The position numbers and the translations under genes were made by a program. From an uncultured Gemmatimonadota bacterium (GTDB lineage: Bacteria; Gemmatimonadota; Gemmatimonadetes; Gemmatimonadales; Gemmatimonadaceae), in assembly GCA_903882745.1 (NCBI GenBank), contig CAIRYG010000011.1:248001-312000 (forward strand): DNA of 64,000 bases. Reading direction: 5' to 3'. Positions 8,604 through 35,556 of the stretch are shown piece after piece. The notes beneath the pieces are model-generated. The model worked only from the letters and a program-made list of their open reading frames with translations. It was not told where the DNA came from and made no database searches. How positions within the stretch are numbered: the stretch's first letter is position 1; every line of letters starts with the position of its first letter.

Positions 8604-9950
8604 GTCGGCGGCGATATACGACAGCACGGCCATAATCGCCACGCACCGCTGCATCTCGGCGGGGTCCAGCTTGTCCACGGTGTCGGCGTCCGTGTGGTGG
8701 AACCAGAAGTAGCGCGACCCGTCGACTTCAAAGCCCACGCCCGGCACTCCCAGCTGCATCATTGGGCCAATATCGGCGCCACCACCGGAGGCCCCAATCT
8801 CCACGGGGCCCACGCTCTTCACGAGCGCCGCAATCTGCTGCATGATCGCACGGCCCGACTCGGAACCCGAGAAGCCGAGCTGCGTGGGCTGGAAGACACC
8901 ACCATCGCTCTCGATCATGAGCACATGATTGGCGACTTCATTCTTATGCGCCTCGGCGTATGCGCGCCCACCGCGGCTTCCGTTCTCTTCGTTGGTCCAA
9001 CCGACCACGCGGATCGTGCGCTTCGGCTTGAGACCGAGCTTCTTCATGAGCTTGAGCGCTTCCCAGGCAACAATCACACCGCCGCCGTCGTCCATGGCGC
9101 CCTGCCCCACGTCCCACGAGTCAATGTGACCACCGAAGGCAATAATCTCGTCGGGCTTCTCTGAACCGCGGATCTCGCCCATCACGTTGCGCGACATCAC
9201 ATCGGGGAGCGTCTGCGCTTCCATCTCGAGCTTGACCACAACCGGCTCGCCACGGGTCACCATGCGGTGGATCATCATCGCATCTTCCACGGTGATTGCG
9301 GCGGTTGGAATCTTGGCGACGGTGGTGTCGTAGTTCATCGCGCCGGTGTGCGGGGTGCGCATGGAGTACGGTGTGACCGAGCGAACGAGCGCCGCGAGCG
9401 CGCCGACTTTCGCCGCCGCCGACGCACCTCCACTGCGATACGCAACCGTCGCGCCGTAGTTGGTGAAGGGCACGTCGAACAGCACGATCTTGCCCTTGGC
9501 TTCCGCAGCGCGTGCGGTGAGTTCGTCAAAGCTTCCCACCACCATCACCGGTGCGGTGATTCCACCCTTTGGCGTAGCAATCGACCCGCCGAGCCCGAGC
9601 ATGGGGAGGTTGGCCACGCGCGGCTGCACGAGTGTGGCGGACTCCTTGCCACGCACCCAGTGCGGCACCATCGCCGGCTCGGTGTGGACGTTCTCGAGCC
9701 CGTCCTTCTTCATCTCGGCCACCAGCCAGTCAATGCCGCGTTCGAGCGCGGGCGATCCCGAGAGGCGATTGCCCGAGTAGTCGGTAAAGCGCGCGAGGGT
9801 GTTCCAGGCAGCGCTCTTGTCGGCCGTGGCCGCGGAGATAATCCGCTCGGAGGTCGCCTTGTAGGCGACGGCGACATCCGGCTGTCCCTGCGCCACAAGG
9901 GCGACAGGGAGCAGCGCGGTAGTGAGGGCAAGAGCGAGGCGAGCGCGCAT
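8580..9950 (-). CDS. Exported M28-family zinc metallopeptidase
   Basis: A 456-residue peptidase of the carboxypeptidase Q/aminopeptidase type, exported to the periplasm. The signal peptide ends near VALVAQG (~residue 21). A PA-like insert lies around residues 115-245. Zinc ligands fall in the classic M28 order: H275 (GGHIDSWD), D287 (MDDGGG), E321/E322 (TNEENGSRGG), D349 (ESDGG) and H419 (FHHTDADT). The complete ligand set suggests an active enzyme releasing amino acids or dipeptides. It starts 39 bp after the TonB-dependent receptor stop on the same strand, so read-through from the riboswitch-controlled promoter is possible. Only a weak hairpin (GCGCTTCGCG then TTTT) separates them. Confidence 0.92.
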   Translation of the reverse strand: MRARLALALTTALLPVALVAQGQPDVAVAYKATSERIISAATADKSAAWNTLARFTDYSGNRLSGSPALERGIDWLVAEMKKDGLENVHTEPAMVPHWVRGKESATLVQPRVANLPMLGLGGSIATPKGGITAPVMVVGSFDELTARAAEAKGKIVLFDVPFTNYGATVAYRSGGASAAAKVGALAALVRSVTPYSMRTPHTGAMNYDTTVAKIPTAAITVEDAMMIHRMVTRGEPVVVKLEMEAQTLPDVMSRNVMGEIRGSEKPDEIIAFGGHIDSWDVGQGAMDDGGGVIVAWEALKLMKKLGLKPKRTIRVVGWTNEENGSRGGRAYAEAHKNEVANHVLMIESDGGVFQPTQLGFSGSESGRAIMQQIAALVKSVGPVEIGASGGGADIGPMMQLGVPGVGFEVDGSRYFWFHHTDADTVDKLDPAEMQRCVAIMAVLSYIAADLPGKIGR

Positions 9951-12245: not shown

Positions 12246-12266
12246 GACGAGAACGGCACGCGACAC

Positions 12267-12360
12267 GCCGCACTCCCTACGCCGGTATAAACCGGGTCAG
12301 GTTCCAAGAGATTCTCTCAACCCCGCATACGCATGGCGTGCGCGGAGTACCCCTGGCGGC
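12267..12360 (-). ncRNA. TPP riboswitch (THI element)
   Basis: The minus strand carries the THI-box core: GGGGU, a P3 stem, UUGAGA (canonical CUGAGA), then GAACCUGACCCGG, UAUACCGGCGUAGGGA. The outer P1 helix is formed by GCCGC (12356-12360) and GCGGC (12267-12271). It lies in the leader of the TonB-dependent receptor, with a terminator between the two. The one departure from consensus is U for C in the UUGAGA box. The divergent MFS gene is on the other strand and is not controlled by it. Confidence 0.93.
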
Positions 12361-12436
12361 TGTCCCCGAATAGTTATGCCGCGCGCACACCTCGCGCCAG
12401 TGGACGACCATCACGCGACACGCACATATTCCTGCT

Positions 12437-21219: not shown

Positions 21220-21231
21220 GGGGCTAACACA

Positions 21232-21282
21232 AACTAGGTGCGCCCCCCTTGTCTGATGTGGACAAGGAGGGCGCACCTAGTT
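21232..21282. terminator. Long inverted repeat between convergent genes
   Basis: Arms 21232-21253 and 21261-21282 pair over 22 positions with one mismatch, around a 7-base loop. No T-run follows on either strand. It lies between the S9 peptidase and the convergent TolB-like gene, so a bidirectional terminator is the natural reading. Confidence 0.7.
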
Positions 21283-21343
21283 CACGAACACCCGCCGCGA
21301 CCTATCGGCGCGAATCAGAATCGGATGAGCCCGCGGAAATGAA

Positions 21344-22348
21344 TTAGCGCCAGGAGCGCACGTACTCGTCGATACTCGGAGTGTTGGTGAGGCGCGTTAA
21401 TCCCGTACCATCGAGTCGCACCGTGTACACATCGCGATTGGCGCCCCCGAAACAGGCGACAAAAGCAACTCGCTTGCCGTCAGGCGAGAAATGTGCTCCT
21501 GATTCTCCAAAGTTCAAGCACGGGTCTGTAACGAGCGCTCGGACGCCGGTACCATCGCTTTTCATCACGAACACTCCCGGCAACGGAAGGACTCTCGTAA
21601 ACAGGATCAACTTTCCGTTTGGCGAATACTCAGGATCGGCCGTCCAGCCGCCAGTCGTCAGCTGCGCGAGGCCTGAGCCGTCAGCGTTCATCGAATAAAT
21701 ATCGTAGGGTCCCGTCCGCTCGCTCATGAACACAATCTTTCGTCCGTCGGGAGACCACTGGCCGACCTCGTCCATACCAGGATTGTTTGTAAGCTGGCGC
21801 ACAGCTGTGCCGTCTGCGTTCATCGTGAAGACTTCCCGAAACGCTCCACCCCAGTTCGTTTCCCGCGTCCAGACTATCTTGAGGTCGTCGCGCGACCAGC
21901 GTGGGACGTACTGGGGGGCTGAGTTCGACGAGATGGCTACCTCGCCTGTACCGTCGATGTTGGACGTCCACAGCGTCTGCGAACCTACGCGCGTGTACAC
22001 CAAGCGACGGCCGTCGTGCGAAAGATCAGCGTGGTACAGTAAGCTTGGTGCCGATGTGCTTCCTGAACCATCGGCACGAATGAGCTTCAAGATTCCACTT
22101 CCAGCTTCGGTCAGAATCACTCCAGTACCACGATCGCCCGGCTCCCACTCGTCATGATCGACGCCGTCGTGCTCTGTTTCCGGCTCACGCTTCTCGAGAT
22201 TACTTGTGGCTATTGCGGTCCGATGGACGCCAGCGGCCATCGGACCGGTGGGAACCTCATTGCCGGCTCCGGAACAGCTTACAGAAAGTACAGATGCAAA
22301 CACGGACAGCAGCAATCGATGGACAGACGTGCGGCGGTGAGTCGACAT
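21344..22348 (-). CDS. TolB-like PD40-repeat lipoprotein
   Basis: A 334-residue lipoprotein; the signal ends at lipobox LSVSC, which fixes the start at ATG 22348. The mature part is a six-bladed TolB-type propeller of ~40-residue blades with the PD40 pattern, such as ADLSHDGRRLVYTRVGS, QWSPDGRKIVFMSERTG and HFSPDGKRVAFVACFGG, each followed by an xxNADGTG-type loop. It has no catalytic domain and probably binds a partner at the outer membrane. Its upstream region is a near-exact copy of the region before the Ig/RCC1 lipoprotein at 25192-30084, so the two are probably co-regulated. Confidence 0.88.
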   Translation of the reverse strand: MSTHRRTSVHRLLLSVFASVLSVSCSGAGNEVPTGPMAAGVHRTAIATSNLEKREPETEHDGVDHDEWEPGDRGTGVILTEAGSGILKLIRADGSGSTSAPSLLYHADLSHDGRRLVYTRVGSQTLWTSNIDGTGEVAISSNSAPQYVPRWSRDDLKIVWTRETNWGGAFREVFTMNADGTAVRQLTNNPGMDEVGQWSPDGRKIVFMSERTGPYDIYSMNADGSGLAQLTTGGWTADPEYSPNGKLILFTRVLPLPGVFVMKSDGTGVRALVTDPCLNFGESGAHFSPDGKRVAFVACFGGANRDVYTVRLDGTGLTRLTNTPSIDEYVRSWR

Positions 22349-22404
22349 TGCGGACCCCAGAGAATAGGTGAACAAATGGGAGGCGCGCTCAACGTTGCTC
22401 GCTG

Positions 22405-22513
22405 ACGTTAACTGCCCGTAATGACCATTTTCGGACAGCGCCCTCACACAACGGCGCAACATGCCGTCAACTAGCGCGACAGAACGCGCCTCGCATTGAC
22501 GCTGAATGAACGC
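22405..22513 (-). repeat. Promoter-module repeat, copy A
   Basis: This segment matches 30143-30251 almost base for base: 22417-22503 equals 30155-30241 over 87 bp with no difference, and the flanks keep most positions. It ends 56 bp before the TolB-like lipoprotein start. It contains the octamer CGTTAACT/CGTCAACT at 22406 and 22465, 59 bp apart, exactly as in the other copy. Same orientation and position relative to a lipoprotein gene suggest a duplicated promoter/operator. Confidence 0.9.
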
Positions 22514-22575
22514 CGACCAAAAGCCTATTCCCGAACACGGATCGCCAGATATGCGATAACGCGACAGCCCCACCC

Positions 22576-22660
22576 GCAATCCGGATGCTGCGCGAATCAA
22601 GCACCTTCTCGGACCAGAACTTCAGCCAAGGCACCTACACCATCCCCTTCTCTGCCTGCG
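22576..22660 (-). pseudogene. Decayed fragment of a SARP-regulator 3' end
   Basis: This stretch aligns without gaps to the 3' part of the SARP regulator gene (30593-30677) at about 70% of bases. In the matching frame it reads KGMV-stop-VPWLKFWSEK, then SRSIRIA, against PGMVRVSWLYCETK, then WRSIPIA in the intact gene. An in-frame TAG shows it is dead. It lies just upstream of repeat copy A, the same order as in the intact locus (regulator, repeat, lipoprotein), and directly abuts the GNAT toxin gene. Confidence 0.7.
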
Positions 22661-22671
22661 TTGACTCTGGG

Positions 22672-23169
22672 TCAGCGAACCAGCACGCGCAGCATGCGGC
22701 GGCGCACACCGGTGGGATCGATGCGTACGAATCCGAATCGTTCGTAGTAGGAGACCAGAGTATCGGACTTCGGATCGACGGCGAGGAAGGCGCCGCCGAC
22801 GTGGGTGATGTGCGCTGCTGAGGTGTGCGCAGCGAGTTCGATCAGTTCTCCGCCGATCCCCTTCCCCTGCCGTGCGCGGTCGACCCCCATGCGGCCGAGG
22901 AGGAATCCGCCGATCTGTGGGTAGGGGAGCCCGTTACGCCCGAGCAGGTGGTGTAGACGACTATCGGCGCGGAGACTCAGCGGGGAAAGGGTGAAGAAGC
23001 CGACGACCGCGTCGTGCCTGTCGACGGCGACGTGAACCGCCGCGAGTCCCTGCGCCTGTTCATTGCGCGCTGCGTGATGGAGATAGTGATCAATCTCCGG
23101 ATCGCCCGTCCTACACGAGCCGAGGCGATGTCCGAGCGAGAGGCGTTCGAGCCGCAGGCGCGCGCTCAC
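22672..23169 (-). CDS. GNAT acetyltransferase toxin (TacT/AtaT type)
   Basis: A 165-residue GNAT-fold protein; members paired with DUF1778 antitoxins acetylate aminoacyl-tRNA and block translation. Features are VGFFTLSPLSL in the central strands, the acetyl-CoA loop RQGKGIGGELI near residue 105, and YYERFGF near the C-terminus with the tyrosine usually needed for catalysis. GTG 23169 was chosen because it overlaps the antitoxin stop by 4 bp (GTGA) and the protein then matches the family's length; the frame stays open upstream but only as antisense-like sequence inside the antitoxin gene. Expressed from the antitoxin promoter. Confidence 0.88.
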   Translation of the reverse strand: MSARLRLERLSLGHRLGSCRTGDPEIDHYLHHAARNEQAQGLAAVHVAVDRHDAVVGFFTLSPLSLRADSRLHHLLGRNGLPYPQIGGFLLGRMGVDRARQGKGIGGELIELAAHTSAAHITHVGGAFLAVDPKSDTLVSYYERFGFVRIDPTGVRRRMLRVLVR

Positions 23170-23477
23170 AGGCCAGCGATGTCTCCGAAGTGTTTGCGCG
23201 CGCGGGTGCGCGCGGCCCGAGAGGCGCGCGTGTCCGCGGGTGGCACCATGAGGAGCCGCATGACCTCGAGAAATTCTGGCGCGCCGAGTTCCCACTCGTA
23301 GGCTTTGCTAATCTCGGCGCTTACGTCCGCGGCGACAACGCGCAGCACGTATTCGTTGACCGATTCACCGTTGGTGCGCGCCACCTGTTGCAGGTGCTCT
23401 TTGAGGACCGCCGGGAGCCGGAGCTCCTGGCGATCATCGGCTTTGAGGGCGAGGTAGTGGGTCGGGGTGTTGGACAT
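23166..23477 (-). CDS. DUF1778-family ribbon-helix-helix antitoxin
   Basis: A 103-residue antitoxin. The N-terminal half has the RHH pattern (ELRLPAVLKEHLQQVARTNG, then SVNEYVLRVV), which binds the operon's own operator. The C-terminal half carries the toxin-binding region with FLEVMRLLMVPPAD, resembling the LDxPxxPN-type segment of DUF1778 proteins. ATG 23477 was chosen over upstream codons since the RHH strand follows directly. The stop overlaps the toxin start. A perfect 15 bp palindrome lies 23 bp upstream and is the likely autoregulatory operator. Confidence 0.87.
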   Translation of the reverse strand: MSNTPTHYLALKADDRQELRLPAVLKEHLQQVARTNGESVNEYVLRVVAADVSAEISKAYEWELGAPEFLEVMRLLMVPPADTRASRAARTRARKHFGDIAGL

Positions 23478-23499
23478 GTACCGGGCGCGAAGAGAGGTG

Positions 23500-23514
23500 C
23501 CGTACAATGTACGG
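23500..23514. promoter_or_regulatory. Palindromic operator of the toxin-antitoxin operon
   Basis: CCGTACAATGTACGG is a perfect inverted repeat with 7-base arms and a one-base centre, 22 bp before the antitoxin ATG. Its place and the RHH product make autorepression likely. Confidence 0.6.
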
Positions 23515-23561
23515 GCTTTGAGGCGACTACGCAATCCAGTCCATGCGTGAGGCTCGTCGGA

Positions 23562-24545
23562 CTAGTCGGGCATCATATCGGCGAGACGATTCCACGCGCT
23601 ATTCCAGTCGGCGGCTTGCAGGTGCCCGAACCACCCGTTCGGCACCTTGGCGTGAGAGCACGGGGTGGAGAGAATCCATGCTGCTGGCCGATGTACACGG
23701 TTCTTGGACTTTGCGAAATTGCGTTGGCGATCGACGAAAGACTGCCAGAGGTCCCATTCAGACTCACTGAGCGATGCGCCGAGCACGAGAATCGACCGAT
23801 TCAACACGAGTTCTACCCACGACTTTGGTGACACCCGAGCGTGCTCCCAGGCATCAGGGTAGCCAAGCTCGCGCTCCAGACGTTTTGCGTCCTTTCGGGC
23901 CTTCTCAATCTGAGGCGTAAGACTCGCGTAGTGCCTTAGGCCTAGTTTGATCGACGTCGGGCGGCGGCGGTCACCATGGGGGTGCCACAAGCGGATGGGC
24001 TCCCCAGCGCCCCCGTCGACTACCTGGGGCTGTTTGGTTCGAATCCACTGAGCCGGAGATTTCCAGTTGCCCAAAATTCGCTCGGTGACGGTATCGAGGT
24101 TCAAAGAAATCACGTCCGTGACCACGCGACTCTTGACCACTCGCTGAACTGGATCAAGGCCACACCTAGCCGAGGCCGTCAGCACGGATTCCGCGTCAGC
24201 GATGAGCTCGGCGGTCGCCTTCTGCAACATGGATTCACGTTTGAGTGCTGCTAAAGTAATCCAATCATTCGGCGTGATTCCAAATTTGTTCCGCACCGCT
24301 CGCGTCGGAACGTCGGCCAGCGTCAACTGCTCCCACAGCATCGGCGGCAACGTGTCAGCCAGCTGCGTTTCCGGGCCTAGGGCTTTTAGGAGTGACGGCC
24401 ACGACGACAGGACTTTCCTGGCGCGCTCCTCGCGATGGGTTGCTGCCGTCCACTGGGCGTGAATTCCAGATCCCACGAGCAGGCAGATATCTGCCTGCGG
24501 TCTACCCAGATGACGGCACAACGACGACCAAGATTTTGAACTCAT
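23562..24545 (-). CDS. SIR2-like domain protein, putative defence effector
   Basis: A 327-residue protein. Segments match the order of SIR2-like (SIR2_2-type) NAD-binding proteins: LLVGSGIHA at 23-30 (dinucleotide loop), VISLNLD at 145-151 in the position of the TTNYD motif (N149, D151), LWHPHGD at 186-192 matching the KLHG motif (H190), an IKLGLRHYASL segment, and ILVLGASLSESEWDLW at 252-267 matching the GYSLSDxN motif. In phage-defence systems such domains destroy NAD+ after infection is sensed. The match is by motif order only and is divergent, so NADase activity is inference. ATG overlaps the stop of the EVE-like gene by 4 bp, so the two are translated together. Base composition is clearly lower in GC than the flanks. 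Confidence 0.72.
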   Translation of the reverse strand: MSSKSWSSLCRHLGRPQADICLLVGSGIHAQWTAATHREERARKVLSSWPSLLKALGPETQLADTLPPMLWEQLTLADVPTRAVRNKFGITPNDWITLAALKRESMLQKATAELIADAESVLTASARCGLDPVQRVVKSRVVTDVISLNLDTVTERILGNWKSPAQWIRTKQPQVVDGGAGEPIRLWHPHGDRRRPTSIKLGLRHYASLTPQIEKARKDAKRLERELGYPDAWEHARVSPKSWVELVLNRSILVLGASLSESEWDLWQSFVDRQRNFAKSKNRVHRPAAWILSTPCSHAKVPNGWFGHLQAADWNSAWNRLADMMPD

Positions 24546-25084
24546 TTCGACTGCTCATTAAAAGGCGGCAGTGAGTACCATCCACTAGGAAACGCCCATG
24601 GTGGCCAAGGTACTGTTGTCACCGAGCGCAGTACGTCTAGGCCGCGTTTGTGGAATGGCATGAAGTACGCTTGGCGAACCCGATTTCCCTTTACAAACGG
24701 GCCGTCCGTGACATGCAAGGCTGGGGCCGATGAGATGAAAAGCTCCTTTCGAATTGGAGCTAGCAGTACGAAATACTCTGCCTCGTAGTACCATCCCGTG
24801 CTGGGCGTTGCCCAACAGTCGCCTCCGCCTGTGATCGGCACGACGCCGTACGTGGGTTCGCTAAGCGCCCGCGATACCGCGACCACGCCGATGCCTGAGC
24901 GATAGTGCACGGCAACGTCACCAATGCTGACATTTTCAACCATCCGTCTGAACTTATTCGCATGCTTCGCCGGTGCCTCGGCTGCGCACACGAGAGAGTT
25001 GGCGGATTCTGTCGACCAACATTTCGTTTGATTACACCACCAGATGTTGCGCTCCACAATCGTCGTCAAATATCGTTGCTCCAC
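24542..25084 (-). CDS. EVE/PUA-like domain protein, putative modified-base sensor
   Basis: A 180-residue protein beginning at GTG 25084. It matches the PUA/EVE-like domain often fused to McrB-type or HNH restriction nucleases: IWWCNQ (14-19) in place of the WWVNQ motif, RRMVENVSIGDVAVHYRSG (46-64) with the GD-v-xxY core, VVAVSRALSEPTYG (67-80), GWYYEAEYFVLLAPI (97-111) and VRQAYFMPF near residue 140. Domains of this fold often recognise modified bases in DNA or RNA. Here it stands alone and overlaps a SIR2-like gene, suggesting sensor plus effector. GTG 25057 is an alternative start. No clear ribosome site is visible for either. Confidence 0.65.
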   Translation of the reverse strand: MEQRYLTTIVERNIWWCNQTKCWSTESANSLVCAAEAPAKHANKFRRMVENVSIGDVAVHYRSGIGVVAVSRALSEPTYGVVPITGGGDCWATPSTGWYYEAEYFVLLAPIRKELFISSAPALHVTDGPFVKGNRVRQAYFMPFHKRGLDVLRSVTTVPWPPWAFPSGWYSLPPFNEQSK

Positions 25085-25191: not shown

Positions 25192-28100
25192 CTATGGACG
25201 GATAACGGCTGCCGGCGTCAGGTGATTCCCAGTAGTGTTGTCGCCGAGCTCTCCATTGGTATTCTGACCCCAGCAGTACACGCGGCCTCCCGTTACCACG
25301 CCACACGAATGACCTGCGCCACCGGCGGAAATCTGCGCAAACGTGAGCGGCGCCCCCCCACCCACGCCTAGCACCGGTACGGGGGTGTAGCGATCAGTCG
25401 TCGTGTTGTCGCCAAGTTGGCCGTAACTATTTTGCCCCCAGCAATACGCGGTGCCCGAAGCAGTGAGGCCGCACGTCATATACGACCCGGAAGAGATCGA
25501 AGCGAACGTCAGCGGGACTCCACCGTCGACGCCCAAGACCGCCACCGGGGTGTAGCTACTGATCGTCGTGCTGTTGCCGAGCGCGCCAACCTGGTTTATT
25601 CCCCAACAATAGGCGGCGCCGCTACTGGTGAGGCCGCACGTATGAGTTTGGCTTGCGGAAATCGAAGTAAAAGCAAGCGGCGCACCACCACCCACACCCA
25701 GCACGGGCGTAGGCAATGAGCGAACGACAGATGCCGAGCCAGTTCCGAGCAGGTCCGTTTCGCCCCAACAGATCGCAGCGCCTGTAGCCGTCAGCCCGCA
25801 TGCGTGCCTGTAGCCCGTAGAGATTGCGGTATACACTAGCGGGGCTCCACCATTCACTCCAGGAACTGCGGTGGGTGTGAAGCGGTCGACGGATGTTCCA
25901 TCGCCAAGGCGGCCATTAGTATTTTGCCCCCAACAGTAGGCGGCTCCCGCCATGGATAATCCGCACGCAAAGCGTGGCCCCACGTCGAGCGCTCTGAATG
26001 TGAGCGATGGACCCCCCGCGACACCGACAACCGGGGCCGGCGTCAGCAACACGGGATCTGTAGTGCTCACGCCCAAGAGTTGCTCATAGCCGCAGCTCAC
26101 CGAGCAGTTTAGTCCCCAGCAATAGGCGGCTCCGGACAAGTCTAGTCCACATTGGCTACTGCTGCCGATTCGCAGCGCACTCAGCACAAGCGACGGTCCT
26201 CCGCTACTCCCCAGCACCGGCATCGGAGTCCGGTGACCCACGGTGGTCCCGTCGCCAAGGTACATACCCATATTGTTCTCTCCCCAACAGTACGCAGCTC
26301 CAGCACTGGTCAGCGCGCACGACGTGAACCCGTTCCGATTGGCTTGCACGGATTGTGCGTAGAACGGCCCACTCGGCGCAAACGGAATGGACTGCGTCAC
26401 TACGGCCAGTCCACTCGACGAGAAAGTGAGCGTATACATATTGGGTGAGGTAGCGCTGATGCCGACGTTCACAAAGGAAGCGACACCATTCACGGCCGTC
26501 GCCGTTGCGGTCCCCACAACGGTCGCACCCGCACTCACCGTGATGGTCACGACGGCGCTGCCCGTGGGGACGGTGTTGCCGCGTGCATCCTGAATTTTGA
26601 CCACCGGCTGGGTGGTGAATGCCGCACCGTTCTCCGCCCCCGCCGCGCTCGTCACTACCGCGAGTTGCGTGGCCTGACTATACAACGAGATGGACTGTGT
26701 TGCGGCCGTCAGGCCCGGTTGGACGAAGGTCAATGTATAGTTCGTCGCGACCGTACCCGTAATCCCAGCCCCGGTGAATTTGGCCACGCCGTTGACGGCA
26801 GTGGCCGACGCATTCCCCACCACGGTCGCACCTGCGCTCACGGTCATCGTAACCGCAGTGTTCGCAGTCGTGACGAGATTGCCGTCGCGATCCTGAATCG
26901 TGACCACAGGCGGCGTGGTGAACGCCGCGCCATTCGCGGCCCCTTCTGCTCGCGTCGACAGCACCAACTGGCTCGCGGTGCCGGCCGTAAGCAAGATTGG
27001 GAGGCCTGTCGACGAAGAGCTTGCACAACAGACAACTCCGGATCCAGAATGAGACAGTCCGAAGCGCAAACGATATTGCGTTCCAACGGCTCCGCTGAAA
27101 CCCACTCCCGTAAAGTTGTACACCGACTGCCCCTCGACCAAGGGGATTGCCCACGTCCCAACCAACTGCGGCTGCCGATCCAGCGATGACGGGGAATCAA
27201 CGACCATGATTACGTCATAGCCCGTGTTACCACTCCCTACGCAATACGGACAGATGTTGGCATAGGTGTTCCCTGCGAAGTCTTGCAACGTAACCTGCGG
27301 CTGTATCGCAAACGCGGCGCCACTCTTGGCTGGCGACTCCGGCGTGCGCGTGACGGACGTTTTATACAGGTCACCCGGTAATACCTTGATCGAGTACGTG
27401 GCTGGACTGAGGCCGAGGGAGCTAAAGGTCAGGACGTAGGTGCCGGCCGTGCCGCTGAGCGATAGGCTCTGATCAAAAGTTGCAACGCCGTTAACGGCGG
27501 TGGCGGTCGCCGTTCCCACGTCACTAATCGTGCCCCCGCTCCGAGCTACCACGGTCGCCCCACTACCGAGGCTCATCGTGACCACGGTCGTCGCGGACGT
27601 AACCGTGTTTCCGCCTGCGTCCAAGATTGTAACCTGTGGCGGCGCGGCGAATCCCTGTGCAACGCGCGCATCCGGGGAGACGCAGTCGGCCGCACTCGCA
27701 CCGTAGGGGCACGATAACGGCGCACGCGTCAGCGTCAAGCGAGTCGCTGGCCCTACCGTCGGCGCGATTGCCTGCGTCACGGCGGGAAGTCCGCTCGCCG
27801 CGAAGGTCAGCGTGTAGTTCGTCCCCGCGATGCCCGCGATGCCGACGGTCGAGAACGTCGCGACACCATTCACGGCACTCACGGTGGCGATCCCGACGAG
27901 GGTCGCCCCAGTACTCACCGTCATGGTGATGCTATGGGTCGCGGTCGTCACGGTATTGCCCGCGCTATCACGAATCGCCACCACGGGCTGGGTGGTAAAG
28001 GCCACCCCGCTCGCTGCGCCAGCCGCACTGGTTGTTAGCACGAGTTGGTTGGCAGTTCCCGCCGTTGGCATAATCGATTGTGTGGCCGAGGCCAGTCCGG

Positions 28101-30084
28101 TTGCCGCAGCGGTCAGCGTGTAGCTCGTGCCCGCCGCGCCACTTACGCCAATGTTCTTAAAGGTCACGACGCCGTTAACAGCACTCGCGGTGGTTGTCCC
28201 AACGAGGGTCGCCCCCGCACTCGCCGTCATGGTGACGAGAGGGGTCGCGCTTGTCACCGTGTTGCCGCTTGCATCTTGCACCGCGACCACCGGTTGCGTG
28301 GCAAAGGCAGCGCCACTCGTTGCACCCGCCGCAATCGTCGTGAGCACGAGTTGGGTGGGGTCCCCCGATACGAGCGTCACGGATTGACTCGCGGTTGCGA
28401 GAGCGCTGGCCGAGAACGTGACGGTGTAGCTTCCTGGTGCGCCGCTTAGGGTCGCGTTGCGCCATGTTGCCATCCCAGCGCTGGTCGTCGCGGTGGTGGC
28501 GCCGCTCAGGGTACCGCCAGCGCTGACTGCCATGGTGATGACAGTGCTGTTGTCGGTAAATACGGTATTGCCATTCGCGTCCTTGAGGGCGACGATGGGT
28601 TGCGTCACGAACGCTGTTCCACTCGTGGCGCCCACGATACTCCGCACGAGCCCAAGCTGCGTTGCGGCTCCTGCTGTAACGGTGACAGAGAGCTGATCGG
28701 TTGTTGCCGCGCTGAGTGTTCCATCGGTTACGCTAAGCTTTGCCGTTTCCGTAGTGTTCAGCACGAGCGGTAGCGTGGCCACTCCGTTGGTGAAGGTTAC
28801 GCTCGTGGCAGTGCCGAACGCCGTACCACCTGCCGTGGGCTTCTGCCCACCCGGCGCCGTGGCTGCGCCGCTAAAGGTCAACGACTTGGCGCCGGTGTAG
28901 GTCGTGGCGGTGTTGCCGTTCGCATCCTTCGCGGTGACTGTAACCGTTTGGGTTGCGCCAGCGACCTGCGTCCCGGTGCCGCTCAGCACAAGCTTCGTGG
29001 CGGCACTAGCGATGCCCGTGGCGGTAATCGTCGCCGCAGTCGCGGACCCAGTCGTCGGTGTCGCGGTCAGCGTTTGTGCGCCGGACGCGGTTCCCAAGAC
29101 CCACGTGCCGGCGAGCGTGGCGACACCGAGATAGTTCGTGGTTGCCGTCGCGGTGCCGCTCAGCGTGCCGTTGCCGGAGGCCACGGCGAATCGTACGGAT
29201 GCGCCTGGCACCGGACGAGAGGATGCATCGAGCACGCGCACACTCAGGGCGGTTGCGGGGGACGTGCCCACCGTCGCCGACTGCGCATCGCCACTGGCTA
29301 CAGCAATCGACGCGGGCGCTGCCGGTTTGATGATCGTATACGAGGAGAAGTGCGAGACCGGCGCAGAAACAACGCCCGTGGTCAAGTCCACCGCACTTCC
29401 CGCAATCGGGGTCGCCACACCGCTCGCATCCACCGACGCGAGCCAGAGCGTCGACTGATCCGCGGTCGCAACGGCGGCCTTATCGTACCGCAGTGCGAGA
29501 GTCAGTGGGCTGCTAAACGTGGTTCCGTCGGGCCCGAACACATAGGTCGTCGCCGGCACCACGCGATTGTCACTCGGCAGTGCGGCTGGGGCGACCGACA
29601 GGGCGGTGCCCGTGGGCACAGCCGTCGGGGGAATCGTCAGCGTAACGGCGCCACCGAGCACGGCCGCGACCGTCGGGGTACTCGCCCCAGCCGGCGGCGT
29701 ACTGATCGGCACGCGCACGGAGAGCGTCGTGCGCCCGACCACGCCGTCGACCGATGCGCTGATCGTCACGGGTCCAGACGCCACACCGACGACGGCTCCG
29801 GCCGCCACCGTCGCGACGGAAGGATCCGAACTGCTCCAGGTGGTGGTCCGGCCACTCACGGTGGACCCGGTCGTGCTGACCGCGGTGGCCGTGAGCGTCA
29901 CACTCCCGCCGACCAGGAGCGCGCCCTCCGCTGGCGTCCCACCCACCGTCACCGAGCCGACCACCACCGGCGCCACAGGCGCGGTCGGGGCATCCTTGAC
30001 GCCACCCGAACAGTTGATAATCAGCGCAATCCCGAGCGCGGCGAACAACAATCGACGGAACGATAGACGAGTCGCGGAAGGCAC
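25192..30084 (-). CDS. Giant Ig-repeat/RCC1-propeller lipoprotein
   Basis: A 1630-residue surface lipoprotein. Start GTG 30084 has GGGGT 7 bases upstream and opens into a signal with lipobox LIINC (C25). Residues ~40-130 are a Big_2 bacterial Ig domain (TWSSSDPSVATVAAGAVVG). Then follow a domain with LTIPPTAVPTGTAL and roughly eight to ten Ig-like units of ~85-95 residues, many with the phrase GAAFTTQPVV-x-I-QD-x-xGNTV. The last ~390 residues contain seven RCC1 repeats (CGLT-x-x-GAAYCWG...LGD-x-TT), enough for one closed seven-bladed propeller; each repeat carries two Cys that could be bonded. The architecture suggests a long stalk presenting a binding propeller. Its upstream module duplicates that of the TolB-like lipoprotein. 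Confidence 0.88.
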   Translation of the reverse strand: MPSATRLSFRRLLFAALGIALIINCSGGVKDAPTAPVAPVVVGSVTVGGTPAEGALLVGGSVTLTATAVSTTGSTVSGRTTTWSSSDPSVATVAAGAVVGVASGPVTISASVDGVVGRTTLSVRVPISTPPAGASTPTVAAVLGGAVTLTIPPTAVPTGTALSVAPAALPSDNRVVPATTYVFGPDGTTFSSPLTLALRYDKAAVATADQSTLWLASVDASGVATPIAGSAVDLTTGVVSAPVSHFSSYTIIKPAAPASIAVASGDAQSATVGTSPATALSVRVLDASSRPVPGASVRFAVASGNGTLSGTATATTNYLGVATLAGTWVLGTASGAQTLTATPTTGSATAATITATGIASAATKLVLSGTGTQVAGATQTVTVTAKDANGNTATTYTGAKSLTFSGAATAPGGQKPTAGGTAFGTATSVTFTNGVATLPLVLNTTETAKLSVTDGTLSAATTDQLSVTVTAGAATQLGLVRSIVGATSGTAFVTQPIVALKDANGNTVFTDNSTVITMAVSAGGTLSGATTATTSAGMATWRNATLSGAPGSYTVTFSASALATASQSVTLVSGDPTQLVLTTIAAGATSGAAFATQPVVAVQDASGNTVTSATPLVTMTASAGATLVGTTTASAVNGVVTFKNIGVSGAAGTSYTLTAAATGLASATQSIMPTAGTANQLVLTTSAAGAASGVAFTTQPVVAIRDSAGNTVTTATHSITMTVSTGATLVGIATVSAVNGVATFSTVGIAGIAGTNYTLTFAASGLPAVTQAIAPTVGPATRLTLTRAPLSCPYGASAADCVSPDARVAQGFAAPPQVTILDAGGNTVTSATTVVTMSLGSGATVVARSGGTISDVGTATATAVNGVATFDQSLSLSGTAGTYVLTFSSLGLSPATYSIKVLPGDLYKTSVTRTPESPAKSGAAFAIQPQVTLQDFAGNTYANICPYCVGSGNTGYDVIMVVDSPSSLDRQPQLVGTWAIPLVEGQSVYNFTGVGFSGAVGTQYRLRFGLSHSGSGVVCCASSSSTGLPILLTAGTASQLVLSTRAEGAANGAAFTTPPVVTIQDRDGNLVTTANTAVTMTVSAGATVVGNASATAVNGVAKFTGAGITGTVATNYTLTFVQPGLTAATQSISLYSQATQLAVVTSAAGAENGAAFTTQPVVKIQDARGNTVPTGSAVVTITVSAGATVVGTATATAVNGVASFVNVGISATSPNMYTLTFSSSGLAVVTQSIPFAPSGPFYAQSVQANRNGFTSCALTSAGAAYCWGENNMGMYLGDGTTVGHRTPMPVLGSSGGPSLVLSALRIGSSSQCGLDLSGAAYCWGLNCSVSCGYEQLLGVSTTDPVLLTPAPVVGVAGGPSLTFRALDVGPRFACGLSMAGAAYCWGQNTNGRLGDGTSVDRFTPTAVPGVNGGAPLVYTAISTGYRHACGLTATGAAICWGETDLLGTGSASVVRSLPTPVLGVGGGAPLAFTSISASQTHTCGLTSSGAAYCWGINQVGALGNSTTISSYTPVAVLGVDGGVPLTFASISSGSYMTCGLTASGTAYCWGQNSYGQLGDNTTTDRYTPVPVLGVGGGAPLTFAQISAGGAGHSCGVVTGGRVYCWGQNTNGELGDNTTGNHLTPAAVIRP

Positions 30085-30142
30085 GGTGGCACCCCAATGG
30101 AACACGTGGCAGTGAGAGCAACGCGCGTAACATCGCGGTGCT

Positions 30143-30251
30143 CCGTCAACTGCACGTAATGACCATTTTCGGACAGCGCCCTCACACAACGGCGCAACAT
30201 GCCGTCAACTAGCGCGACAGAACGCGCCTCGCATTGACGCTCGATGAACGG
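30143..30251 (-). repeat. Promoter-module repeat, copy B
   Basis: The partner of 22405-22513, with 87 identical bases at 30155-30241. It ends 58 bp before the GTG of the Ig/RCC1 lipoprotein. It carries CGTCAACT at 30144 and 30203, the same 59 bp spacing as copy A. On the minus strand these read AGTTGACG, which resembles a -35 element. Confidence 0.9.
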
Positions 30252-30334: not shown

Positions 30335-30454
30335 ATGGCGCACGTCGACCTCGGCCTAGACGACCTCCGCCGAGCCGAATTACATTGGTACGAAGCCACA
30401 GGAATCGGCCGCCGCGAAATGAAAATCAAACGCTTTCTCGACCTGCACCTATGA
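30335..30454 (+). CDS. Small ORF, 39 residues, possible gene remnant
   Basis: ATG to TGA encodes a charged peptide containing LDDLRRAELHWYEATGIGRR and ending KIKRFLDLHL. A stop codon lies immediately upstream in frame. The stop overlaps the next ATG by 4 bp, the pattern of a real two-gene unit. I do not recognise the family with confidence. The non-random sequence and coupling argue that it is, or was, coding. Confidence 0.45.
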   Translation: MAHVDLGLDDLRRAELHWYEATGIGRREMKIKRFLDLHL

Positions 30455-30567
30455 GCGCTCCTCGGACATCGCTCGCGCTGTGCCTGCAAAACACCGGCTA
30501 TGAGGTTTCGCTCGAACGGCGAAAGCTCTACCGCACCATCCCCGACCGCGCCGCTACGCGCCCCCCC
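30451..30567 (+). pseudogene. Truncated small gene at the SARP 3' boundary
   Basis: Starting at ATG 30451 the frame reads MSAPRTSLALCLQNTGYEVS, then LERRKLYRTIPD, which resembles small proteins with an SLExRKxYxxLPD motif that continue with an acidic C-terminal part. Here the sequence after IPDRAA turns into the antisense of the SARP regulator gene (stop at 30568), so the 3' half is lost. The frame stays open only because it runs through antisense sequence. A run of eight C (30562-30569) marks the junction. Confidence 0.45.
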
Positions 30568-33500
30568 CTACCGCACCTCCACCTTCAGCACCGCAATCGG
30601 GATGCTGCGCCAAACACGCTCCTCCTTGGTCTCGCAGTACAACCAAGACACCCTCACCATCCCCGGATCTGCCGCAGCGCGAATCAGCTGATCCATCGGC
30701 AACGCCATCAGATCATTGCCGTCGCCCCAGCGAGGCGTGCCGCAACGCCAGTTCGTTCCAGACAGCAGCCACGATCCCGTGGGCTCGCCGGTCTGCGTCC
30801 ACGCAATCAGGTAGTCGCCAGTCGTAGTTGGCGCTCGGAGTTTCAGCGTCGATTGCATGCGCGCATCCCTCAGACCGGCAAGCAGCGATCGCACCGTGAG
30901 CGTATCACCGCCGTGCTGCCCCCAACTCGTGCCACGCGCCAGCACGTAGAGCGCCCCGCGGCTGGGCGTCGTATAGCGAAACGCCACCGACCCCGAAATC
31001 TCCCCGCCAGGCGCAACGCGAACGGTATTCAGTCCACCGCGGAGTCGGCGTCCGTTCACAAGACCATCCACAATGCGTAGCGCCTCTGGCCATTTATTCA
31101 CCACGAGATGCACGGGCTCAAGACCCGCCGCGACAAATCGCTGATCTTTCGCGAGCTTTGCCCTCCTGTAGTCCGGATGCCCGCCCTGCTCCGGGTATGG
31201 AATTTCCGCAACAAACAACGAGTCAAACTCGGCGACCCCTCCACGAATCACCGCGACCGTGCGCCCCCGGAGCATCACACCGGAATCCGAGCTCGTGTAG
31301 TGCACCGAATCACCATCGCGCCAGGTGGAGCGGAGGCCGAGTGCGTTGCGTACCTCCACTCGGAGCGGACGCTCGAAGGGCGTGGTGGGGTCAGCCGATT
31401 CCAACGCGTTCAGCTCCGACACATCCACCAATCGTACGGGGCGAAACGGAATTAACACCGCAGCCGCCACAATCGCGATCAGGGCAGCCGCGCCCCCAAT
31501 GAGGCGCGCCAGGTACGAACGCCGTCGCGCGCGCACCAACGCGCGCAAACGCTCCGCGAGCGGCGGATCATCCACCCCGCCAAGGATCACGCGTGCCACC
31601 GTGCTCTCGTCAAAGGCCTCGCGCGGCGTGCGAAGGATCAGCTGCTTCGCAATCGCGAAGGCGCCGTCGCGATCATCGCCGGAGAGCAACAACCGCACCG
31701 CTTGCCGGTACTCCGCGTCCGTTCCCGCCGTGCGCGCAAGCCAGTTCCCGAGTCGCCGAGCGCCAAGCAACCAGTCGCCCTTGGTGAGCAACTCGGCGGC
31801 CGACTCCCGCAACAGCGCATGCGCCACCGACCAGCTGCCGTCGTTGCCACGCGAGGCGAACCCGCCACGCTCCAGCCCCGCGAGCCGATCACCCACAACC
31901 TGCTCCGACACCTGGAGCAGGTTCACCAACGAGGCCACCGAGAGCGCCGACTCGTGCAGCATGAGCGCCACCAAACACTCGCGCTCGTCGGCACTGATCG
32001 ACAAAATGCGCGCTTGGTCAACCGCGGTTCCCTGCAACAGCCGCTCGACCTCAGTTTCGGAATGCACCATCCACTGCCCCGCCGTGACCGACACCGCTTC
32101 ACTCGCAATGGCCGCGCGCAGAAACTGCAACACACCGAAGGGCGATCCGCCGGCGTGCCGTTGAATCGCTTCGGTTCGGGCATCGCTCCAGTGATCTGCG
32201 TTCACAACTGCCATTGACCCAAGCAGCGCGCCCACCTCGGCTACCGTGAGCGGCGGAAGCGCAATCTCCTGCGATGATGATGCGAGCGACGGAATCGAAA
32301 CACGCGACGCGCCGAGTAGCAGGAGACCCGCCCCGGCACCACGGGCGAGGGTGCGCTCAATGCAGTACAGCGAGGAGGCGTCGGCCCACTGCAGGTCATC
32401 AATCAGCAGGGCCCACGCTCCTTCTTCGCTGACGGCACCAAACAGATCCGCAACGGCGAGGCCACGGCGACGTAACTGTTCGTCGCTATTCCCCGTGGAG
32501 ACTTCGGCGGCGACGTGAAAGCGATCCGCGAGCTGCGGCACGATCCCCGCCAGTACGGCGGCCGACGCGGGCGAGATTCCCGCGGCGCCGGGCAATGCGG
32601 CGATTGCGGGCAGAATACTCGCGAGCATGGCATAGGCATCGTCGCGCTCGCGCTGCCGTCCGGTACTCTGCACCAGCGGTGCGCGCTGCACACGCAGACG
32701 GCGCGCGATTTCATGAAGCAAGCGCGTTTTCCCTAAGCCAGGCGCGGCGACCAGGATGCGCACATACTCGTGGGCGTTCTGCGTGCGCGACCAGGCCGCG
32801 ACGAGCTCGGCAAAGAGATCGGTGCGCCCCTGAAACTCGGGGTGCATCGGAACCTGTACTAATGCCCCGGAGCTCCCTGCCACCGCCGGGGGCGTGAGCT
32901 CGGCGCCGGTCGACATGGAGATTTTGGGCCCCGCCTCACGCATCAAGCGCCGCAGCAAAGTTTCCGTCGGCGGCTCGGGCTCGCGGCCTTCGTCAGCTCG
33001 CAGCACGCGCAGCGCCGCCGACTCGAGCGCGACCTCCGCGAACCGCCCGCCAACGCCGAGCGATTCGAACAGCAGGCACCAGTTCTCGTCGTCTTCGGGG
33101 GCGGTGTCGCGCACGCGCGTCGCCACGCGAATGGCGTCGTCGAGCGAGCCCGCGGCCCGGAGCGCGGCGTGGTGACCGCGCGCGGCGGACAGGAAGGCGC
33201 TCCGCAAACGGAAGCGTTCGGCATCGACCCAATGTTCAAACTCGAGGGCGCCGGGGGACGCAAAATCGGGAATGAACGATCCGCCGTACAGGCGGTAGGC
33301 ATCGGCGACCGCTCCGCTGCGGAGGGCCTGCTGGAACTCGTCAACATCCACAGTCAGCCCCGGGGCGAGCGTCAGCCAATCGCCGTCGCCAATCAGGACC
33401 TGGGCGCCGAGGGCTTTCCGGAGACCGAAGACCGCTTGGCGCAGGGAGGCCCGAGCCACCTCGCGCTCCCGTTCGTGCCAGAGCAGTTCCACCAGGGTCT

Positions 33501-33639
33501 CGCGGGACGCTTGCCGATCACGGGCGCAGGCCAGGTAGGCGAGCACGGCCAAGACCTTGGACGGCGGGAGCGCCACACGTCCGTCTTCGTGGCGGAGCTC
33601 GAACCGGCCGAGGAGTTGGAGGCGGAAGGGGAGATTCAT
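30568..33639 (-). CDS. Membrane-spanning SARP/BTAD regulator with AAA ATPase
   Basis: A 1023-residue protein. Residues 1-100 are an OmpR-like winged helix (LPPSKVLAVLAYLACARDR, ASLRQAVFGLRKAL); ~100-240 is the bacterial transcriptional activation (BTAD) helical domain. Then comes an ATPase with Walker A APGLGKTR (299-306) and Walker B ALLIDDLQWAD (410-420). A single strong membrane helix (RLIGGAAALIAIVAAAVLIP) at ~712-731 follows a basic stretch, leaving ~290 residues outside the cytoplasm, including a PTTPFERPLRVEV segment and two Cys near the end. Typical SARPs are soluble, so this looks like a membrane one-component sensor. The gene stands alone, upstream of repeat copy B, and its promoter has a CGTCAATT box. 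Confidence 0.85.
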   Translation of the reverse strand: MNLPFRLQLLGRFELRHEDGRVALPPSKVLAVLAYLACARDRQASRETLVELLWHEREREVARASLRQAVFGLRKALGAQVLIGDGDWLTLAPGLTVDVDEFQQALRSGAVADAYRLYGGSFIPDFASPGALEFEHWVDAERFRLRSAFLSAARGHHAALRAAGSLDDAIRVATRVRDTAPEDDENWCLLFESLGVGGRFAEVALESAALRVLRADEGREPEPPTETLLRRLMREAGPKISMSTGAELTPPAVAGSSGALVQVPMHPEFQGRTDLFAELVAAWSRTQNAHEYVRILVAAPGLGKTRLLHEIARRLRVQRAPLVQSTGRQRERDDAYAMLASILPAIAALPGAAGISPASAAVLAGIVPQLADRFHVAAEVSTGNSDEQLRRRGLAVADLFGAVSEEGAWALLIDDLQWADASSLYCIERTLARGAGAGLLLLGASRVSIPSLASSSQEIALPPLTVAEVGALLGSMAVVNADHWSDARTEAIQRHAGGSPFGVLQFLRAAIASEAVSVTAGQWMVHSETEVERLLQGTAVDQARILSISADERECLVALMLHESALSVASLVNLLQVSEQVVGDRLAGLERGGFASRGNDGSWSVAHALLRESAAELLTKGDWLLGARRLGNWLARTAGTDAEYRQAVRLLLSGDDRDGAFAIAKQLILRTPREAFDESTVARVILGGVDDPPLAERLRALVRARRRSYLARLIGGAAALIAIVAAAVLIPFRPVRLVDVSELNALESADPTTPFERPLRVEVRNALGLRSTWRDGDSVHYTSSDSGVMLRGRTVAVIRGGVAEFDSLFVAEIPYPEQGGHPDYRRAKLAKDQRFVAAGLEPVHLVVNKWPEALRIVDGLVNGRRLRGGLNTVRVAPGGEISGSVAFRYTTPSRGALYVLARGTSWGQHGGDTLTVRSLLAGLRDARMQSTLKLRAPTTTGDYLIAWTQTGEPTGSWLLSGTNWRCGTPRWGDGNDLMALPMDQLIRAAADPGMVRVSWLYCETKEERVWRSIPIAVLKVEVR

Positions 33640-35292: not shown

Positions 35293-35556
35293 ATGAGCCC
35301 GTCAGATCAAGATTCGTTGGATTCCGGTGTAGATTCCGCCGTCGATTCGGGCGTAGACTCGGCTGCGGATTCGGGCGTGGATTCCGCTGCTGATAGCGGC
35401 GTCGATTCGGCCGTGGATTCGGGCGTAGACTCCGCTGCGGATTCGGGTGTGGATTCGGCTGCTGATAGCGGCGTCGATTCGGCCGCGGATTCGGCTTCTG
35501 ATTCCGCCGCTGATGCCGAAGCGGACGACGAAGACGACGACAGCGACGACGACTGA
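35293..35556 (+). CDS. Acidic repeat protein (DSGVDSAA repeats)
   Basis: An 87-residue protein with a good ribosome site (AGGAGA 6 bases before the ATG) and its own terminator. Residues ~9-68 are an eight-residue repeat, D-S-G-V-D-S-A-(A/V), ending in an Asp/Glu-only tail. It contains no Lys or Arg after the N-terminus, so the charge is extremely negative and the chain is probably disordered. There is no signal peptide. I do not recognise a family; it could bind cations or basic proteins, or be an entropic spacer. Codons for the repeated Asp, Ser and Val vary, so the protein repeat is under more constraint than the DNA repeat. Confidence 0.7.
   Translation: MSPSDQDSLDSGVDSAVDSGVDSAADSGVDSAADSGVDSAVDSGVDSAADSGVDSAADSGVDSAADSASDSAADAEADDEDDDSDDD

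Follow-up and report, generated by a model that had tools for sequence, protein, structure and literature searches.

The window considered here, a 64,000-nucleotide stretch of DNA from an uncultured Gemmatimonadota bacterium, carries two lipoprotein genes on the minus strand, and the same short repeat sequence is found upstream of each. Gene A (21344..22348) has a VSCSG lipobox and encodes a PD40 beta-propeller (Pfam PF07676, 9e-21). The segment that contains it ends with a likely terminator, a 20-bp palindrome followed by a T-rich tail, detected by pattern scan (21234..21280, minus strand). Gene B (25192..30084) has an INCSG lipobox, and Pfam matches reveal Big-like repeats together with RCC1 repeats. 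Upstream of gene B and its copy of the repeat is a gene for a BTAD-AAA transcriptional regulator (30568..33639, minus strand; Pfam Trans_reg_C, BTAD and AAA_16). The translated sequence displays OmpR-type DNA-binding, BTAD and AAA domains, and a hydrophobic segment and a further C-terminal domain are discernible by eye.

Direct comparison confirms that positions 22417-22503 and 30155-30241 are identical base for base over 87 bp, as an earlier note on this DNA had claimed, and chance is excluded as the source of the match. The 87-bp core sits within a 107-bp unit, found at 22406-22512 (copy A) and 30144-30250 (copy B), and the two units are 96.3% identical; the note had put the similarity at ~109 bp. 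Both copies are in the same orientation on the minus strand, with a start-to-start spacing of 7738 bp. From the end of the unit to the start codon, the distance is 57 bp for gene A (ATG, 22348) and 59 bp for gene B (GTG, 30084); the note had given 56-58 bp. Each gene has a GGGG-type ribosome-binding site 6-7 nt before its start codon. The leaders that include these sites occupy 22346..22405 for gene A and 30082..30143 for gene B (both minus strand), and in a three-way alignment with a related genome the leader of A is a diverged homologue of that of B. The whole 3.06-Mb genome, assembled in 14 contigs, has exactly two copies of the element, and both copies and both loci are on a single 643-kb contig, each copy between flanks of its own. 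Within the about 498 kb of the genome examined, no second dispersed pair reaches 60 bp and 90% identity. A repeat of a different type is present at 35320-35535, where thirteen in-phase copies of a 12-bp sequence (GATTCGGSYGTN-like) probably code for a D/S/A-rich repeat stretch.

The similarity between the two loci extends beyond the element on both sides. Upstream of copy A, an 83-bp segment (22574..22656, minus strand) derives from the 3′ end of a BTAD regulator gene and is now a decayed remnant. It shows 76% identity to 30591-30673 and 84% to the related genome, and it has a stop in the former reading frame, read by eye. The homology of this flank to the 3′ end of the regulator gene is firm. 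Downstream, the first ~33 residues of the A and B proteins, comprising the signal peptide, the lipobox and a PTxP linker, align with a score of 67, compared with a mean of 23 and a maximum of 47 for shuffled sequences. At the DNA level the two starts are 54-56% identical in ungapped comparison; the corresponding values are 33% for the median of 26 collected lipoprotein starts, 40-45% for relatives of B and 38% for the best other lipoprotein start. The signal peptides thus look homologous on good evidence, weaker than that for the upstream homology, and convergence of signal peptides could contribute. The mature domains differ, a PD40 beta-propeller vs Big-like/RCC1 repeats. The earlier description of the coding regions as unrelated therefore holds for the mature proteins but not for their amino-terminal ends.

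A search of 99 relatives, and then of 179 family genomes, revealed the element in one further genome, termed G014, of the same genus. Among named genomes, a 22-bp core pattern has its sole match in the G014 record (contig JAPLKT010000109.1, Gemmatimonadetes MAG LacPavin_0818_WC50_MAG_63_9). G014 represents a sister species with a single copy of the element, 89% identical to copy A and 93% to copy B, and this copy precedes the orthologue of lipoprotein gene B. The plasmid and phage collections contain no match to the element, a scan of viral contigs with a 20-bp pattern found none, and a profile built from the three copies detected no additional copy in the collected loci, including those of the B paralogues on contig C10 of the window's genome. 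The genome-wide search that had been proposed with the repeat thus gives three copies in two genomes, all of them (3/3) before lipoprotein genes; the many copies elsewhere that would have spoken for a dispersed repeat are absent.

Read backwards, the window is collinear with the G014 contig, which shows, in order, the BTAD regulator, the element, lipoprotein B, variable genes, a GNAT gene and an S9 peptidase. At the matching G014 site the segment with gene A and its element (21224-22656, about 1.43 kb) is missing; G014 positions 9119 and 9134 correspond to window positions 22657 and 21223 and leave the site nearly empty. An orthologue of gene A was not found in 17 other genomes of the genus (the best match is 48% over 80 residues), so that a gain in the window's lineage is the simpler reading. 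Gene B is orthologous to G014-B over the first ~465 codons only. The C-terminal part is of the RCC1 type in the window (25192-28690) vs Big_2 and laminin-G-like in G014 (L032 5500-6961), a difference that points to a domain replacement between the species.

Other features of this region vary in their conservation. Right beside the gene A insertion, a GNAT acetyltransferase gene adjoins an Arc/TacA1-like antitoxin gene (22672-23534, minus strand); both are conserved in G014 and probably form a toxin-antitoxin pair of the TacAT type. At 23562-25084 (minus strand), a gene whose SIR2-like match is weak (PF13289, E 0.0012, below the cut-off) overlaps an unassigned gene by 4 bp. Both are missing from the matching place in G014, and the two may form a small defence islet. 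A 218-bp segment between regulator and element (30344-30561) shows 99.1% identity to G014, above either neighbouring coding region. Its G014 counterpart lies in a small opposite-strand open reading frame, of which the window has lost about 118 bp beside the regulator stop codon.

The three copies of the element allow their relationships to be followed along the sequence. Each site was classified according to the pair among A, B and G014-B that has the same state, with G014 as the single outgroup. Across the leader and signal peptide, B is paired with G014-B at 66 sites and with A at 5. Within the 87-bp core, B is paired with A at all seven informative sites and by one indel, and at no site with G014-B; the switch in grouping is significant (Fisher p = 3e-7). 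At the edges of the 107-bp unit B again agrees with G014-B, at two sites on each side. A mosaic of this kind, in which the grouping switches at the core and reverts at its edges, is what a short gene-conversion tract should leave, with paralogues in agreement inside the core and orthologues outside. The remnant of the BTAD gene gives a mixed grouping (A with G014 at 10 sites, B with G014 at 7, A with B at 3), and judged from this remnant the flanks have a mixed history too. As the flanks of A match B less well than the core does, a simple recent copy of the whole region does not account for the data. The most suitable reading of copy A is that it belongs to an old, diverged duplicate covering the 5′ part of the regulator/element/lipoprotein locus, which would have been joined to a different mature protein.

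The direction of conversion is most likely from B to A. B differs from G014-B at 8/87 positions in the core and by 8.4% over the 321 bp starting there, about the same extent, so that B was probably the donor. With A as donor, the B core would be as distant from G014-B as the flanks of A are.

We favour, as moderately probable, the following account. The 107-bp element would be the 5′ control region of a locus consisting of the BTAD regulator, the element and lipoprotein B. An older partial copy of this locus, comprising the 3′ end of the regulator gene, the element, the leader and the signal peptide, would have been joined to a different mature protein (gene A); it sits 7.7 kb off, in the window's lineage only. 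After the split from G014, the core of the B element would have overwritten the matching part of A by ectopic gene conversion over a short tract. Conversion of this kind, i.e., homologous recombination without crossover, would leave 87 bp of perfect identity between diverged flanks. Of the three causes listed in the earlier note (copying, gene conversion, constraint), gene conversion is the one supported when A, B and G014-B are compared, as a recent ectopic event.

The main rival is purifying selection alone, whereby both operators or promoters were constrained and have remained identical since the old duplication, and the G014 copy drifted as its regulator was broken. In agreement with this, the window's BTAD gene is intact and that of G014 (L032 262-3331) is interrupted by an in-frame stop and a frame break, as a pseudogene or through an assembly error. 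Selection would nevertheless have to keep 87 consecutive bases unchanged beside a leader in which identity has fallen to about 54%, and the core of B has changed relative to G014-B at the rate of its surroundings, so that no special constraint is apparent in the B lineage. This explanation is considered unlikely. That the element alone was recently copied to its place before gene A, as could happen with a small mobile repeat, is less probable and appears very doubtful. The boundaries of similarity are rather sharp and the ends look faintly like inverted repeats by eye, as such an insertion might produce. However, the genome has only two copies and the sister species one, the old regulator remnant lies upstream of copy A on the expected side and in the expected orientation, a related signal peptide lies downstream, and plasmid and phage sequences give no match. 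A MITE-like dispersed mobile repeat was rejected in view of the copy number of two and the homologous flanks.

The earlier note had also suggested a recombination cassette site that swaps lipoprotein genes behind one promoter. The region from the regulator to the S9 peptidase does differ strongly between the two species, as does the C-terminal half of B, but none of the breakpoints maps to the element: those of the gene A insertion are at about 21223 and 22656 and that of the C-terminal replacement in B at about 28690. In addition, direct repeats 7.7 kb apart would delete the intervening genes and not swap them reversibly, no sequence common to A and B is found downstream, and no silent archive was seen. 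Cassette exchange at the element is thus highly improbable, and the suggestion is not upheld. A comparison with integron attC-like sites, made by eye, showed no matching core sites. Slightly less probable again is an error of assembly by which elements that are only similar came to be identical. The sequence is a draft of 14 contigs, yet a single 643-kb contig holds both copies, each with its own flanks, the separate G014 assembly supports copy B and where it lies, and an 87-bp repeat is shorter than ordinary reads.

The natural reading of the element is that of a putative promoter/operator region, given its position 57-59 bp before the starts with a ribosome-binding site between, and a lipoprotein gene downstream in three of three cases. 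A simple scan for sigma-70 promoters gave no match in either copy. A structured regulatory RNA was rejected as a candidate, with a fold z of -1.6 relative to shuffled sequences and no Rfam match at either copy. A shared coding stretch was likewise rejected: the frame in which the element joins the reading frame of A differs from that for B. Elsewhere in the window, a TPP riboswitch is found at 12256-12364 (minus strand; Rfam RF00059, 58.6 bits).

The BTAD regulator is the obvious candidate activator, and it is hypothesized that it might control the element. The element displays a weak 10-11-bp self-similarity (z about 2.2), and a one-base deletion in the G014 copy alters the repeat spacing; with a periodicity this weak and a spacing so changed, the link to the operators of SARP-type regulators stays hypothetical. 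The closest relative of the regulator outside the pair (42%, in genome G008) is found without the element and with no lipoprotein gene directly downstream, and in G015, a further species of this genus, a BTAD gene and a B-like lipoprotein gene are arranged divergently. The window's own genome (G000) has a second, decayed BTAD regulator on contig C10 (L133 8701-10854), with 29% identity and two internal stops, ~9 kb from a B paralogue. The regulon of surface lipoproteins that had been proposed is not supported, as two genes hardly suffice for one and other lipoproteins on C10, which have related signal peptides, lack the element.

The repeat follows known evolutionary routes and is largely explained, and as one pair in one genome it is of modest reach. 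It does offer a compact example in which a control region has been homogenised between two lipoprotein genes with differing exteriors, and in which a sister species and a near-empty site are at hand for comparison. It also names a testable pair of regulator and target, the gene at 30568-33639 and the element. A broader proposal, which we consider improbable, is that Gemmatimonadota maintain lipoproteins as a modular system, with a constant head (regulator, element and signal peptide) that would be recombined with changing exteriors, the heads homogenised by conversion and controlled by a membrane-tethered BTAD-AAA protein. If correct, this would be a counterpart of Borrelia erp in a non-spirochaete, environmental (lake) lineage.

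Comparable cases found in the literature searched are mainly from spirochaetes. In SARP/AfsR-type operators, direct repeats recur every 11 or 22 bp, and 8 bp separate the last of them from the -10 element (PMC10936776). The neighbouring regulator resembles these systems in its OmpR-type DNA-binding, BTAD and ATPase domains. The element shows a 10-11-bp self-similarity that is weak and altered by the deletion in G014, and its operator role is putative. In the vmp expression site of B. hermsii, a short upstream homology sequence is used in gene conversion (PMC6011951), and there as here a short sequence at the 5′ end of a lipoprotein gene takes part in non-reciprocal conversion. The vmp system differs in having one active promoter fed by some 60 silent genes and in its need for a downstream homology sequence as well. 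Here both copies have the element and only the element was converted; there are two copies only, each directly before an intact lipoprotein gene, and there is no silent promoterless archive.

The closest known case is the shared promoter and leader of the Borrelia erp (OspE/F-related) lipoprotein genes, in which the promoter/operator and the leader are conserved (PMC10016077). The erp genes have a common promoter region and leader peptide with differing exteriors, and recombination among erp loci has shaped them. The present loci likewise share upstream control DNA (87 bp identical, 107 bp at 96%), and their signal peptides align and their exteriors differ, although the leaders are diverged and less conserved than in erp. 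The erp family has many loci on cp32 prophage plasmids and tested repressors, whereas here there are two chromosomal loci and, next to one of them, a BTAD gene with a putative role as regulator. There is no allelic position of the cp32-plasmid kind; both loci are on the 643-kb contig, and the element is absent from plasmid and phage records. The present case belongs to neither Borrelia system but, by analogy, appears to work like a two-member family of the erp type with homogenisation of its control region.
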